The position numbers were made by a program, and so were the translations under genes. The notes under the pieces were generated by a model that saw nothing but the letters and a program-made list of their open reading frames with translations, ran no database searches and had not been told where the DNA came from. This document shows positions 5,417 through 22,347 of a stretch of DNA of 27,972 bases, in pieces. This stretch comes from a virus, in IMG/VR virus record IMGVR_UViG_3300034682_000445, positions 1-27,972 of that record. The stretch is one strand, 5' to 3'. Numbering within the stretch: position 1 is the stretch's first letter; every line of letters starts with the position of its first letter.

Positions 5417-6893
5417 TGTTTTGAGCTCCTGAATCATTGGCTGGATCGGTATCTGTCACGATGCCGTGTTCCTTATTGAATTTGATTTCTTCAACACGCT
5501 GACGTTTAACTTCATCAGGGTTTTGACCTTCCGCCCTGATCCACTGAGTTTCAGTAGCAGCTCCGCCACGAATTTTTGTTTTCCATGCATCCGATTCTTT
5601 TGAAGGGTCAATCCAAGGCATTACCGGCGCGAGATAGACGGCATCAAATAACGTGCGTCTATCGAGGTCTGGCGGAAGCTTCAGATCAGTCAGCAGTTCA
5701 GCGGCAAGCCATTCTCGATAGACGGGTCGAGACCACATCCCAACGAATTCATCTTGCAAGACGGCATAGCCTTCAAACCCTTCCACCAGCTCTTGTCGTT
5801 GAGCTGAATAAGAGCCGTCATAATCACGAGCAATACTGGAATAATTACTTCTTGTCCCCGCGGCTCCAGAACGAAGCTGCCCCTCACGCCATACATTCAA
5901 TTGCGTGTTTGGCCGGTTACTTTGAATGGTGCCAACTTCTTCACCAGGACGAAGATCATCGAAAGTCATACCTGGTGAAATATTGAAACTACGAGGCTGA
6001 CCCTGCGTTTCCGGAGTCATGTAATTGTCGGGATTACCTTTTTTGATATAAAAGGCAAGACACGCAGATATGCGGGCTGCAACGCGCTCCGCCTCTTCCA
6101 CATCTTTCAGATCAGATAATCGAGTGATGATGCCGTGTAGCAAAGTAATGCCGCGAACTTGGTGAATCCGCTTTCTTAAAGCCAGGTGAAGCATGTCGTC
6201 AGCTGAGATACTTTTCGTAGTGAATCTGATGCCAGTGGCTTCACCTGGGTGATCGAGTAACACGTTGTAAGCGATTGGTCTGCGCCAGCCATTTAACTGA
6301 ACGCCTTGGACGATGTTTTTCCCCGGGTCATTCAAATCGAGAGGAACAAAATCTGACTCCAGCAATTCGATAGCGAATGGTGTGTTTGTCAGGTATTTAT
6401 AATTGGGAACAGACCCTCGAATTAGTTTCCCGAACACATCACCATCACGAAGCCACGACCTGAGAACTAATCGTTCCATCTGTGGTCGAGAAAAGGTGCC
6501 AGTAACTTCAGGGGAAATTGACCATGCGGCCCAGCGGTGGCGAAGTTCAGCGGCAAAGTCAGTTAATATTTCACCAGTGAGACTTCTCGGCTGTGGCTCA
6601 ATTTGAATTCCCTTTGCCCCGATGATCCGCTCTTCCATTTTATCGAGCAGGCCAATCACAATGTCGTGGTTTTCATCCAACCAGCGCGCTTGTTCGCGAA
6701 GAGATCGCCCAGATGCAAATACCGCATTATTAGCAGCCCGATGTTCACGGCTGGCTTTATGCGTGCGGCTGGGTGTTGCCGCCTCATAACCATTTATTAG
6801 TAACCGATGGTAGGCTCGATTTGCACCCCACTGAGGCGCAACAGCAGCAATGGCTTGCTCTACTCCTTCTGCTAGCTTACTCAGTAGTTTCAT
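5334..6893 (-). CDS. Phage portal protein, lambda gpB family
   Basis: At 519 residues it is close to lambda gpB (533). The early WLDENHDIVIGLLDKMEERI region, the WAAWSISPEVTG segment and LLESDFVPLDLNDP are typical of lambda-type portals. The portal is the 12-subunit ring at one capsid vertex through which terminase pumps DNA and to which the neck and tail attach. The C-terminus is hydrophilic (Asp/Gln/Asn-rich, about residues 470-519) and is encoded by DNA that also encodes the start of the protease-capsid fusion in another frame. It lies between gpW and the capsid gene, exactly as in lambda. Confidence 0.92.
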   Translation of the reverse strand: MKLLSKLAEGVEQAIAAVAPQWGANRAYHRLLINGYEAATPSRTHKASREHRAANNAVFASGRSLREQARWLDENHDIVIGLLDKMEERIIGAKGIQIEPQPRSLTGEILTDFAAELRHRWAAWSISPEVTGTFSRPQMERLVLRSWLRDGDVFGKLIRGSVPNYKYLTNTPFAIELLESDFVPLDLNDPGKNIVQGVQLNGWRRPIAYNVLLDHPGEATGIRFTTKSISADDMLHLALRKRIHQVRGITLLHGIITRLSDLKDVEEAERVAARISACLAFYIKKGNPDNYMTPETQGQPRSFNISPGMTFDDLRPGEEVGTIQSNRPNTQLNVWREGQLRSGAAGTRSNYSSIARDYDGSYSAQRQELVEGFEGYAVLQDEFVGMWSRPVYREWLAAELLTDLKLPPDLDRRTLFDAVYLAPVMPWIDPSKESDAWKTKIRGGAATETQWIRAEGQNPDEVKRQRVEEIKFNKEHGIVTDTDPANDSGAQNNDSGQQVTQQDAAQPDGGRTRSRDRTK

Positions 6894-6902
6894 GGGTTAG
6901 CC

Positions 6903-7112
6903 TCAGTTAAAAGTAGCAAGCGAATGCGAAGGACGACCACCCCGCCGGATTGAAGCTAGTTTTTGTTCCCACTCCTGCCGGCCTTTGCGGATTTCACTTA
7001 AGTTTTCACGTTGTAACAGCCGATTTCCCCACATCACGTTTTTACCTTGCAGTAAGTCCCGTTCTGCCTGCGTATAGCGAGTCAGCATGTCTAAAATTTC
7101 TGTTTCGTTCAT
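6903..7112 (-). CDS. Head-tail connector protein gpW-like
   Basis: The 69-residue basic protein has the helix, hairpin, helix layout of lambda gpW (68 residues): a first helix with TQAERDLLQGK, a short strand-like MWGNRLLQRENL, and a second helix SEIRKGRQEWEQKLASIRRG. gpW plugs the portal after DNA packaging so that FII and the tail can join. The gene overlaps the terminase large subunit stop by ATGA and precedes the portal gene by 9 nt, as in lambda A-W-B. Confidence 0.8.
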   Translation of the reverse strand: MNETEILDMLTRYTQAERDLLQGKNVMWGNRLLQRENLSEIRKGRQEWEQKLASIRRGGRPSHSLATFN

Positions 7113-9058
7113 AGCCAGCCCGATCGGTTAAAGCCACCAATCCAGCTTGATTGCTGGTTTGATGAACTGGAATTATTTGATTCTTCTGGAGGGTTTTGAT
7201 CTGAGCGCTCTGGCGCTTGAACTGTTTGATTTAGATTAAAACCAAAGTGCTGGACACCAATTCGAATAGCTGCCAGCGAATAAACTGCACAGTCAGTTGG
7301 TTCGTTTCTTACGCCACTAGGGCATATCCAGCGATAAACTCGACGACCTTTGACGAACTCCATCTTCTTTCGTTCAGCGGTCAGGCCTTTGAAGTAGGTT
7401 TCATCAGCCCATTCCGCTATTGGGTGATGTCGATAACCTGGGCAAGGTTGTTCTATGTTAGATGGCACCATAGCTAAACGCGGGTAGATAATATCCTTGG
7501 CGTTATCGGTACCAACTTCCGTCAGGTACACACCTTTTCGTGTTCTTTTGCGCGGGAAGTTAGCGACCGGTTTCCCGTAAATGCTGGCCCCTTTTACAGG
7601 TATCCAGCGTTGCGGGCTCGATTTGCAGAATGTGTAGACCTCATCGGTGTAATGGCCACCAGAGTCAATACAACCAATCCGGATATCCAGCTGTGTTCCA
7701 TCTTCCCGAGTAAACGAACGAGTTAACTGCTTCCTTAGTGTGTCCCATATTTCCTGACGGGATAAATCACCAAATAACCGGCCGTACTCAATTACCCAAG
7801 ACTCTTCACCTGCTCCCCAGCCAGTTATCTCGTATTCGAATCGGTCATCCTGGGTATCAACACCAGCTGTGACATATAACGCTCGAAGAGGAACTTCAGC
7901 CCGGTAAACTTCACGCCTTCCTGCAATCGCTTCCCACTCCAGCTTCTCGCCAGTTTCCTCTTCCCATGTTTCACCAAGGGTAGTGTTAACAAAGGTTTTT
8001 AATTTGCCTGGGTCATCTTTAGTTTTCAGAAAATCCTTAACAATCTGAACCCAAGTAGTAAATGGAGAATATGCGGTCCATACATGAAAGGTCACTGAAT
8101 CAGGGGTATCAATCGCGTTATTATCAGAATCAAAATAGTCATAACCATCTATGGTCCAAATATTTGTTTTTTCACAAATAAAACGACCATCAGACTGATC
8201 AAGCTCAGACTGTTTGATAACACATGCATTATGTTCACAAAGGTAATAAGTAGTTTTTGCGTCATCACCATCCCATTTGATCCCAAATGAGCAATCTGTA
8301 CCGCCCCATTTAAGATGCTGTTCATTTCCACAGTGCGGGCATTTAACGTGAAACCTGAAGAAATGAGGAGATTCACTGGCTGCTCGCTCTATCTGGCATT
8401 GACCAGCAATTTTTGGTGTTGACCCACGAACAGATTTTGGATTTGTAGAACCCTCAATGCGTTTATCCCCGAGGAATGTTGCAGAACCTTCTTTATCAAT
8501 ATCAGGGGGAAAAGCGGCTAGCTCATCGTAATAAACATCATCGACTGACTTTTCTCGATAGTTCCCGCCGGCATTACCACCGAGAACCCAAAAACCACGG
8601 CCATTTGAAAAACGTTTTAACTCAAGGGTATTGTCTCTATGTTTTTTCCCAATCCAAGGTGATATAGCCTTGATAGCAGGGACATCCCTTATCATTGGCT
8701 CCACATGAGATTTCATAAAATCTGATGCGGCACCGTCTGTTGGCTGAAATAGCAAACAGTTTCGTTTCTTGTGTTGAATCTTATATGCGATTACACCAAG
8801 CAGCATTTTTGAATAGCCAATTCGCGCTGACTTGATCAGGTTTACTTCTCTGATGTCATCATTAGCCATGCTGTTAATGATGGCTACCTGAAAAGGTAGC
8901 GTTTCCCACTTACCTTCCTGGTATGACGACTCAACAGGTAAGTAATAATTTTCGTTCATCCATTCCACTGCCGTCATTGGCCGTGGACGATGCAGCGCGA
9001 CAAGCCCTCTCCGAATAGCTGATCTTAAATTCTCAGCTTGAATTGGTGAGATACTCAT
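7109..9058 (-). CDS. Terminase large subunit, lambda gpA family
   Basis: The 649-residue protein matches lambda gpA (641) in length and motifs. A variant Walker A KSARIGYSK (residues 76-84) and Walker B VDDVYYDE (172-179) form the packaging ATPase. A CPHCGNEQH zinc-type pair follows at about 239-247, and the GVDTQDDRFEYEI segment contains acidic residues of the cos-cleaving nuclease. It cuts concatemers at cos and translocates DNA into the prohead through the portal. The ATG at 9058 has GGGAG 7 nt upstream and overlaps the small subunit gene by 26 nt. The C-terminal end is Asn/Ser/Gln-rich and would bind the portal. Confidence 0.95.
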   Translation of the reverse strand: MSISPIQAENLRSAIRRGLVALHRPRPMTAVEWMNENYYLPVESSYQEGKWETLPFQVAIINSMANDDIREVNLIKSARIGYSKMLLGVIAYKIQHKKRNCLLFQPTDGAASDFMKSHVEPMIRDVPAIKAISPWIGKKHRDNTLELKRFSNGRGFWVLGGNAGGNYREKSVDDVYYDELAAFPPDIDKEGSATFLGDKRIEGSTNPKSVRGSTPKIAGQCQIERAASESPHFFRFHVKCPHCGNEQHLKWGGTDCSFGIKWDGDDAKTTYYLCEHNACVIKQSELDQSDGRFICEKTNIWTIDGYDYFDSDNNAIDTPDSVTFHVWTAYSPFTTWVQIVKDFLKTKDDPGKLKTFVNTTLGETWEEETGEKLEWEAIAGRREVYRAEVPLRALYVTAGVDTQDDRFEYEITGWGAGEESWVIEYGRLFGDLSRQEIWDTLRKQLTRSFTREDGTQLDIRIGCIDSGGHYTDEVYTFCKSSPQRWIPVKGASIYGKPVANFPRKRTRKGVYLTEVGTDNAKDIIYPRLAMVPSNIEQPCPGYRHHPIAEWADETYFKGLTAERKKMEFVKGRRVYRWICPSGVRNEPTDCAVYSLAAIRIGVQHFGFNLNQTVQAPERSDQNPPEESNNSSSSNQQSSWIGGFNRSGWL

Positions 9059-21461: not shown

Positions 21462-21489
21462 TTGACATAATACAAACCAATAGTATGCT
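21462..21489 (+). promoter_or_regulatory. Predicted pL-like promoter for the plus-strand operon
   Basis: TTGACA (21462-21467), a 16-nt spacer and TATGCT (21484-21489) form a strong -35 with a moderate -10. Transcription would start near 21496. Operators flank it at 21449-21461 and 21489-21501, the second overlapping -10 and the start. It faces away from cI, like lambda pL, and feeds the plus-strand genes from 21511 to 27733. Confidence 0.75.
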
Positions 21490-21501
21490 AACTGTCAGTT
21501 A
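21489..21501. promoter_or_regulatory. Operator overlapping the pL-like start site
   Basis: TAAC-TGTCA-GTTA inside a 15-bp perfect palindrome CTAACTG-T-CAGTTAG, the most symmetric of the four operators. Confidence 0.7.
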
Positions 21502-21510
21502 GGTTATTTC

Positions 21511-21804
21511 ATGTGGCACCCCAGCAGAAGGTGGGCAACATCTGCAACAGGGCTCGCAGCCTCCACAGCTCTCCTCTGGGAAGGGAAACCGACCAGAGTG
21601 CAATCTGGAAAAATAGCGAGTGACCTGCTGACGTGGGAAAGACCTCAGAGTGTTGGAGCACACAGCTGGTGGAAGTCCAGCATACAACGGGGATTGTTTT
21701 ATGGAATCGAGCCGAGCAAAGCCACAGAGACTGTGCAAGTTAGTCGCCCGATCATGGTTTATCCAGATATTGACGGCATAGGACGCAAGGAAGACGGGCA
21801 ATAA
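21511..21804 (+). CDS. Possible leader ORF, 97 codons, doubtful
   Basis: An open frame starts 15 nt after the predicted pL start with AGG 7 nt upstream. The product (MWHPSRRWATSATGLAASTA at the start) has six Trp in 97 residues, no recognisable fold and a composition unlike its neighbours. The same DNA is full of short hairpins and is richer in G+C than the genes around it, so it may be a structured leader RNA and not a gene. A shorter frame starting at 21513 (36 codons) also exists. I leave it as a weak candidate. Confidence 0.2.
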   Translation: MWHPSRRWATSATGLAASTALLWEGKPTRVQSGKIASDLLTWERPQSVGAHSWWKSSIQRGLFYGIEPSKATETVQVSRPIMVYPDIDGIGRKEDGQ

Positions 21805-21874
21805 GCAGGATTTGAGCATCCTGTACGTAGAGCAATCCACCGATGTGTAATTACATCAAAAAGGTGTCTGCGAT

Positions 21875-22024
21875 ATGTCTCAGTTTATTAGAGATTTAAT
21901 CGCCTTACTTGCTGAGTGCTGCCTGTCACGATTGCGAGTAGCTCCGATTGATGATCATGAAAAAGACATTAGTCGGGTTGTGTTTGCAGATGTTGAATCA
22001 TCACGCATTAAAGGGATGCGGTAA
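21875..22024 (+). CDS. Small protein, 49 residues, in the pL leader
   Basis: Translates as MSQFIRDLIALLAECCLSRL followed by a basic, acidic, then basic end (VESSRIKGMR). AAGG lies 10 nt before the ATG. Positioned early in the pL operon, a place where lambdoid phages keep small regulators. No family recognised. Confidence 0.45.
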   Translation: MSQFIRDLIALLAECCLSRLRVAPIDDHEKDISRVVFADVESSRIKGMR

Positions 22025-22152
22025 ATAAGGCGGAAACAGGCATTTAGTTCATGGATTGTTGGGTAATGAGGCGGCACAACAACACCAGATCCCGCCTAGC
22101 TCGTGAAAACATTAATTTTGTTCATCCGAGCCACGCTTGCTGGAAGGTGAGC

Positions 22153-22250
22153 ACACAACTGAATGTCATCTGTAGCTCAGAAGGTAGAGCGAACGACTTT
22201 GAATCGGGAGGTCACCGGTTCGATTCCGGTCAGATGGCACTCAGTTGTGT
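22153..22250 (+). repeat. 10-bp inverted repeat enclosing the tRNA-like element
   Basis: ACACAACTGA (22153-22162) and TCAGTTGTGT (22241-22250) are perfect inverse complements lying three and two bases outside the tRNA-like sequence. Two of the three bases between (T and G at 22164-22165) also pair with C and A at 22238-22239. The acceptor stem could thus extend to a nearly unbroken helix of about 19 pairs with one A-C mismatch. Confidence 0.75.
22166..22238 (+). tRNA. tRNA-like element, anticodon UUG (Gln), degenerate anticodon stem
   Basis: A 73-nt sequence with a full tRNA layout: acceptor TCATCTG/CAGATGG (U-G first pair), TA at positions 8-9, D-arm GCTC-AGAAGGTA-GAGC, anticodon loop CTTTGAA (anticodon TTG), variable AGGTC, T-arm ACCGG-TTCGATT-CCGGT and base 73 a C. 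The anticodon stem AACGA/TCGGG has only three good pairs; the outer two are A-G mismatches. No CCA is encoded. The base before position 1 is G and base 73 is C, a pair that marks bacterial tRNA-His, not Gln. It lies in the pL leader of the phage. It may be a functional tRNA, a decayed one, or a tRNA mimic with a regulatory role. Confidence 0.65.
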
Positions 22251-22266
22251 TCGTAGCGCAACCTGA

Positions 22267-22287
22267 CCACCAGCAGCAACCTGGTGG
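22267..22287 (+). other. 7-bp hairpin before the nut-like site
   Basis: CCACCAG, a 7-nt loop, CTGGTGG: perfect arms. It stands directly in front of the boxA-like CGCTCAAT at 22288. Confidence 0.5.
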
Positions 22288-22325
22288 CGCTCAATTCAAA
22301 TACCCGGCTGGCTCGGTTAGCCAGC
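22288..22325 (+). promoter_or_regulatory. nut-like site (boxA plus boxB hairpin), candidate
   Basis: CGCTCAAT (22288-22295), similar to boxA CGCTCTTA, is followed after 11 nt by a hairpin GCTGGCT-CGGTT-AGCCAGC (22307-22325) with a 7-bp perfect stem and a 5-nt loop, the form of lambda boxB. The small basic gene at 22348 follows. Against it, the site is about 790 nt from pL, whereas lambda nutL lies close to the promoter. Confidence 0.35.
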
Positions 22326-22347
22326 ACCTATCTCAAGCGAGGTGTTC

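Follow-up and report, generated by a model that had tools for sequence, protein, structure and literature searches.

The tRNA-like element in the early-left leader of this virus is probably a non-decoding cassette, made from a tRNA core and carried on the socket stem of a modular untranslated leader RNA. Most likely, it is a domesticated tRNA-like module; a functional tRNA-Gln, mimicry of tRNA-His and a neutral relic are all less likely. The stem is conserved and covarying in many phages, the RNA enclosed by it is exchanged, and the tRNA core is shared with a second phage.

The window, as we call the whole stretch of DNA analyzed, is a virus record of 27,972 bases which encodes a lambda/N15-like terminase. 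CI-like and CII-like regulators and a weak Cro-like match are encoded near the leader, and the early-left operon includes a Dam-like methylase and an SSB; the closest prophages found for the Dam protein belong to Aeromonas, Rheinheimera and Marinobacter. The pL leader setting proposed in the first-pass annotation is supported, given that a pL-like promoter is surrounded by operator-like repeats CTAACTGTCAGTTAG, as read from the sequence, with the CI-, Cro- and CII-like genes close by. The first convincing ORF of the operon starts at 22342 or 22348, and the tRNA-like element is located ~670 nt downstream of the promoter (Table 1). A possible ORF of 49 aa with a Shine-Dalgarno-like AAAGGTG is present in the leader (21875-22024), and short hydrophobic ORFs were observed in other leaders (MYQLMMLSLLVTLCLG in L032 and MWLLLLMLIWLLGL in L024). 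When the ORF after the leader and CI were used as queries, only distant relatives were retrieved, none of them with leader tRNAs, and the search of the leader against phage, plasmid and E. coli collections returned mostly tRNA bodies or partial matches. Homology to the Q-downstream tRNA clusters of enteric phages was discarded, the likeness being limited to the body of a tRNA-Thr.

Table 1. Features of the early-left leader and of the tRNA-like element in the window.
Feature	Positions	Strand	Basis or remark
pL-like sigma-70 promoter, TTGACA-16 nt-TATGCT	21462..21489	+	operator-like TAACTGTCAGTTA repeats on flanks
Untranslated early-left leader, ~845 nt	21497..22341	+	start inferred from promoter, end from ORFs
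Upstream hairpin of conserved block, GCTCG...CGAGC	22099..22131	+	alignment with L026, L032, L038, L073
P0 hairpin GCTTGC-TGGAAG-GTGAGC, abuts P1	22135..22152	+	
P1a 5' arm ACACAACTGA, first half of 10-bp inverted repeat	22153..22162	+	model R1
A of A.C mismatch, partner C22240	22163..22163	+	
P1b 5' strand TGTCATCTG, two extra pairs plus acceptor 5' strand	22164..22172	+	covariation
D arm GCTC-AGAAGGTA-GAGC	22175..22190	+	one compensatory change vs L068
Anticodon arm AACGACTTTGAATCGGG, anticodon TTG at 22199-22201	22192..22208	+	3 nt shorter in L068
T arm ACCGG-TTCGATT-CCGGT	22214..22230	+	
P1b 3' strand CAGATGGCA, acceptor 3' strand, C73 and A	22231..22239	+	covariation
P1a 3' arm TCAGTTGTGT, perfect complement of ACACAACTGA	22241..22250	+	model R1

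The cloverleaf (22166-22238) is scored by tRNA models: ARAGORN calls a tRNA-Gln(TTG) at 22165-22240, and RF00005 of Rfam matches 22166-22238 with 53.6 bits against a cut-off of 29, a score close to those of ordinary phage tRNAs. The tRNA layout with a UUG anticodon, described before from the letters only, is therefore corroborated, and so are the two mismatched pairs of the anticodon stem (A27.G43 and A28.G42), around which the loop still has 7 nt and a plausible UUG. The perfect 10-bp inverted repeat that encloses the cloverleaf was also recognized, together with the two further pairs (22164-22165/22238-22239) that lie inward of the A.C mismatch (22163/22240); in most copies of the stem a mismatch or a 1-nt bulge separates P1a from P1b at this point. 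None of 200 shuffled sequences folded as well as 22150-22253 (z = -5.3). For the core in the window, the predicted minimum-energy fold is another hairpin, favored over the cloverleaf by 4.7 kcal/mol.

Among 986 distinct tRNAs in the phage loci examined, only four have a contiguous flanking helix of at least 9 bp (10 bp in the window, 9 in L068/L213, 13 and 10 in L088), two of them (L068 and the tRNA-Leu of L088) having been fetched by patterns that required the arms. With shuffled partners this length is reached in ~0.05% of the cases. Matches of a broad T-arm pattern, mostly ordinary phage tRNAs, were used as background. The helix of 13 bp surrounds a tRNA-Leu(TAG) on the reverse strand of L088 (9895-9983), within a very large phage tRNA array.

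The inverted repeat of the window represents a conserved stem, P1, which in other copies reads CACAAC...GTTGTGGTGA. About 30 copies were found, in leaders of phages or prophages of Aeromonas, Hafnia, Marinobacter and Klebsiella and of unassigned viral contigs; the scans of the collections were based on patterns. In an alignment of 20 copies, 97.4% of the cells across 19 pairs are standard-paired and 57 cells changed on both sides; none of 500 shuffles was as good, and pairing fell to 25-54% when the partner was slid as a control. It should be noted that the outer eight pairs are invariant because nearly all the copies were fetched with a pattern containing them, while the inner eleven were not selected by the pattern. 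A covariance model, R1, trained on the 20 rows and giving rough E-values, recognizes the socket (P1a, mismatch or bulge, P1b) in the window with 82.5 bits (E 1e-16), the window being one of the training rows. Furthermore, R1 revealed copies out of reach of the search pattern, in which the outer arms carry compensated changes: CAACCG/CGGTTG in Marinobacter L028, CAACTCAG/CTGAGTTG in L022 and CAACGAAA/TTTCGTTG in L077b, and also those of Klebsiella Taipeivirus KP6. The new copies (Marinobacter L028, Aeromonas L022, L077b, an Aeromonadaceae MAG (L030), KP6 (L084) and two more Aeromonadaceae genomes) have mostly E-values of 1e-7 or better, with L077b weaker (2e-4). An R1 copy is present in 9 of 75 Aeromonadaceae genomes. 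The exact pattern, searched in 395 genomes of the order, gave three already-known Aeromonas genomes and one probable chance match. Seven exact-pattern matches (L056, L059, L065, L066, L075, L076 and L081) were rejected as resembling chance, with weak folds and no frame. No Rfam family covers the P1 module at its gathering score in any of the loci scanned.

R1 copies are found in leaders of early and late operons of temperate phages, and also in the large lytic Taipeivirus KP6, and in the loci read the modules point the same way as the operon. The leader with the module is placed after a repressor-like gene in L038 and L044, precedes genes that look RecE/RecT-like in L032, L073 and L077, and in L052 and the Hafnia phage L082 the module lies before the holin. 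Two modules in tandem were observed in single leaders of L026 (5949-6036 and 6271-6420) and L069 (453-537 and 1007-1177). In KP6 (OR882092), the copy lies in ~3 kb without annotated genes (~5592-8617, the same as L083 290-3095), a stretch rich in predicted structures, where STnc100 matches with 49.7 bits, T-loop motifs are present, a permuted tmRNA scores below threshold, and a tRNA cluster adjoins. In the prophage locus L061, matches to the C4 antisense RNA and isrK (2717-2960) accompany an R1 copy.

What the stem encloses varies from phage to phage. By blast of the window against Aeromonas prophages, 22065-22164 aligns to L026 (75%, E 1e-10) and the alignment ends at the tRNA: behind the same upstream block, L026 carries the arm ACACAACTG, 148 nt of an unrelated fold, and then CAGTTGTGGTG. 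In L032, L073 and L038 the same block is followed by a three-way fold of 85 nt or by a fold of 107 nt; its hairpin in the relatives reads GTTCG...CGAAC, and the hairpin at the position of P0 differs in most of them. Conversely, the stem GGATTGCATTG/CAGTGCAATCC is preceded by a different upstream block in each of L024, L044 and L038. One block with several inserts, and one stem behind three blocks, indicate that frame and insert were exchanged independently. On the transcribed strand the interiors are compact RNA folds, and most relatives have no tRNA at all inside P1. It had been proposed that the repeat is an extension of the tRNA, which does not agree with relatives that keep the stem while enclosing other folds; the suggested inspection of related phages for the same repeat around tRNAs revealed the stem without the tRNA, the opposite of the tRNA without the repeat that was to speak against the proposal. 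T-arm-like hairpins appear in 6 of the 32 interiors (shuffling predicts 0.04), including those of L064 (two), L080 and L085, of which L085 was fetched with a T-arm pattern and L064 and L080 were not. Separately, several leaders with the module also contain a complete tRNA-Pro(TGG) gene, which encodes CCA wherever this was read (L032 8331-8405, L038 1768-1844, L044 1658-1734, L068 4770-4844, L069 775-849 and L073 3495-3571).

Only two phages, the window and L068, have this exact tRNA core, and the two cores are homologous (75% across 96 nt, E 2.7e-9). All 27 pairs of P1, the D arm and the T arm are kept between them, and six were changed on both sides, five of these in P1b/acceptor. In L068 the anticodon arm is reduced to a hairpin of 14 nt, with a clean 5-bp stem and no anticodon loop, and the gene is called 'tRNA-???'; the L068 core folds as the cloverleaf at minimum energy. 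Among host tRNAs, the tRNA-Thr(UGU) (TGT in the gene) of Aeromonadaceae is the nearest, and the core of the window, from position 8 to the T arm, is 82% identical to it (positions 8-75). However, the acceptor strands are unrelated, the CUUGUAA loop became CUUUGAA, and the window has no CCA and its ends are locked in the 10-bp helix. Most simply, this can be read as a Thr-type tRNA core set onto P1b, with P1b taking the part of the acceptor stem. With respect to the earlier suggestion of a decayed phage tRNA, the resemblance to tRNA-Thr(UGU) is in its favor, but the acceptor pairing was kept by compensatory changes instead of drifting freely.

A functional phage tRNA-Gln(UUG), with flanks that are complementary by chance, and released by RNase P and RNase Z before a nucleotidyltransferase adds the CCA, would explain the complete cloverleaf, its UUG anticodon and its score, and real tRNA genes, such as those for tRNA-Pro(TGG), are indeed present elsewhere in related leaders. 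We nevertheless regard it as unlikely. Gln identity requires G73, U1-A72, G2-C71 and G3-C70 (PMC9976931), all of them absent in the window, whose acceptor has C73, U1.G72, C2-G71 and A3-U70; U34, U35, G36, A37 and G10 are present and U38 is absent. The CCA is not encoded (the window reads GGC-ACT), whereas the neighboring tRNA-Pro genes in the leaders of L032 and L038 have ACCA. The anticodon stem has its two mismatches, the homologue in L068, with no 7-nt loop, cannot decode, and the relatives have the flanking stem without any tRNA. Since the acceptor identity for Gln is absent, there is no CCA and the tRNA ends lie within a continuous helix, charging of the RNA of the window is unlikely, as is decoding. 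As regards C73 opposite G-1, considered before as a tRNA-His hallmark, the pair is present in the window, but it is U-A in L068. It belongs to the long helix as any other pair does, and mimicry of tRNA-His was discarded. A better competitor, possible although we would not favor it, is that the element is what remains of a captured tRNA-Thr gene, functionless and in decay, with selection acting on the P1 socket only. The likeness to tRNA-Thr, the damaged anticodon arm and the non-cloverleaf fold favored by the core of the window are consistent with it; the free exchange of inserts suggests that their content may not matter, and most of the compensation could follow from selection on P1b only, with none on the core. 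On the other hand, both phages retain every pair of the D arm, the T arm and the acceptor, six of them by compensation, the anticodon arm of L068 turned into a clean hairpin instead of accumulating random damage, and T-arm-like hairpins recur across other inserts. A purely neutral relic is less likely because the pairing has been maintained.

The remaining alternatives assign a function to the stem itself. In a processing or antitermination switch, which we find doubtful, P1 (CAGTTGTG/CACAACTG) would compete with a second helix and the insert would tune the read-through of the operon. In many relatives (leaders of L032, L044, L026 and L022) the 3' arm of P1 is also complementary to a downstream CACCACAA, so that GTTGTGGTG can pair with CACCACAAC, and the copies lie in early- and late-operon leaders, where antitermination acts. 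However, this GTGGTG/CACCAC partner is absent from the window, both helices may simply coexist, and no terminator was found on the + strand of the leader of the window. The processing switch of the first-pass annotation found no support; most relatives have no tRNA in P1. Sequences of tRNAs often serve phages as att sites, and the cassettes are exchanged at short conserved ends, as would be expected if the inverted repeat were a recombination hairpin that swaps cassettes or part of an integration site. Such an element acting at the DNA level is very improbable: there is no identity block, the core being only 82% identical to the host tRNA-Thr and the acceptor strands unrelated, the interiors form compact RNA folds on the strand that is transcribed, and the modules follow the direction of the operon.

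Comparison with known RNAs led to no family that could accommodate the module. The STnc100/PasD prophage sRNAs (RF02076) are likewise structured, occur in lambdoid prophages near Q and often beside tRNAs (PMC13192938); by eye they share with R1 a GGTGAAT...CACC look, and the STnc100 match of KP6 is close to the R1 copy. However, the R1 copies themselves do not match RF02076; Rfam scans of the window and of R1 loci gave no match to it except at that separate site of KP6. GOLLD is also a large phage RNA, with a linker that sometimes contains tRNAs (PMC12286853), but its size and stems differ from those of the module, and neither GOLLD nor ROOL of Rfam matched the window or the related leaders. 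YrlA (Y RNA-like, RF02553) is a tRNA mimic with T and D arms, matched by the window with 30.4 bits; membership was rejected, as the score is below the gathering score of 69, the order of the arms in YrlA is circularly permuted and L068 gave no match. The Proteo-phage-1 RNA (RF03044) scores weakly (24.8 bits against a cut-off of 42) where the leader of L022 begins, upstream of P1; this is a separate element. Finally, PMC11555353 describes phage tRNAs that counter tRNA-cleaving defences. Neither these nor GOLLD with a tRNA presents the same arrangement as the element in the window.

In the reading that we prefer, of a non-decoding tRNA-core cassette on a socket stem, the socket helix is composed of P1a, a mismatch or 1-nt bulge, and P1b of ~9-11 bp, is common to many phages, and the RNA within it is exchanged as a cassette. 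The cassette of the window and L068 is a core most like tRNA-Thr(UGU), using P1b as its acceptor stem. With its end locked in P1a, no CCA, the synthetase identity lost and the anticodon arm mismatched (truncated in L068), it would be neither charged nor used for decoding. Once transcribed and folded in the cell, the tRNA-shaped cassette would remain in the leader RNA and show its elbow and T arm to a host tRNA-handling protein, for which a maturation enzyme, a modification enzyme or a tRNA-cleaving defence nuclease are candidates. A structural mimic that meets such a protein is our best guess, in line with the tRNA mimic among the proposals of the first-pass annotation, and soon after infection or induction it may act as a decoy or offer a docking site; the decoy step is proposed by likeness to the phage tRNAs described as countering tRNA-cleaving defences (PMC11555353).

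The conservation of the stem sequence around contents that change, a host-like tRNA core among them, suggests that phages can build RNA devices from parts. In a more speculative and rather improbable extension, the modular leader RNA of Aeromonas, enteric and other phages would carry cassettes acting as decoys or inhibitors, each for a different host factor, with the tRNA-like ones as bait for tRNA-cleaving defences. If this were true, a leader RNA displaying cassettes would be the RNA counterpart of the anti-defence gene islands. The series of swaps, with the same frame and different inserts, is directly testable, and the R1 family, which has no counterpart in Rfam, offers a defined place to seek RNA-based host takeover or anti-defence.
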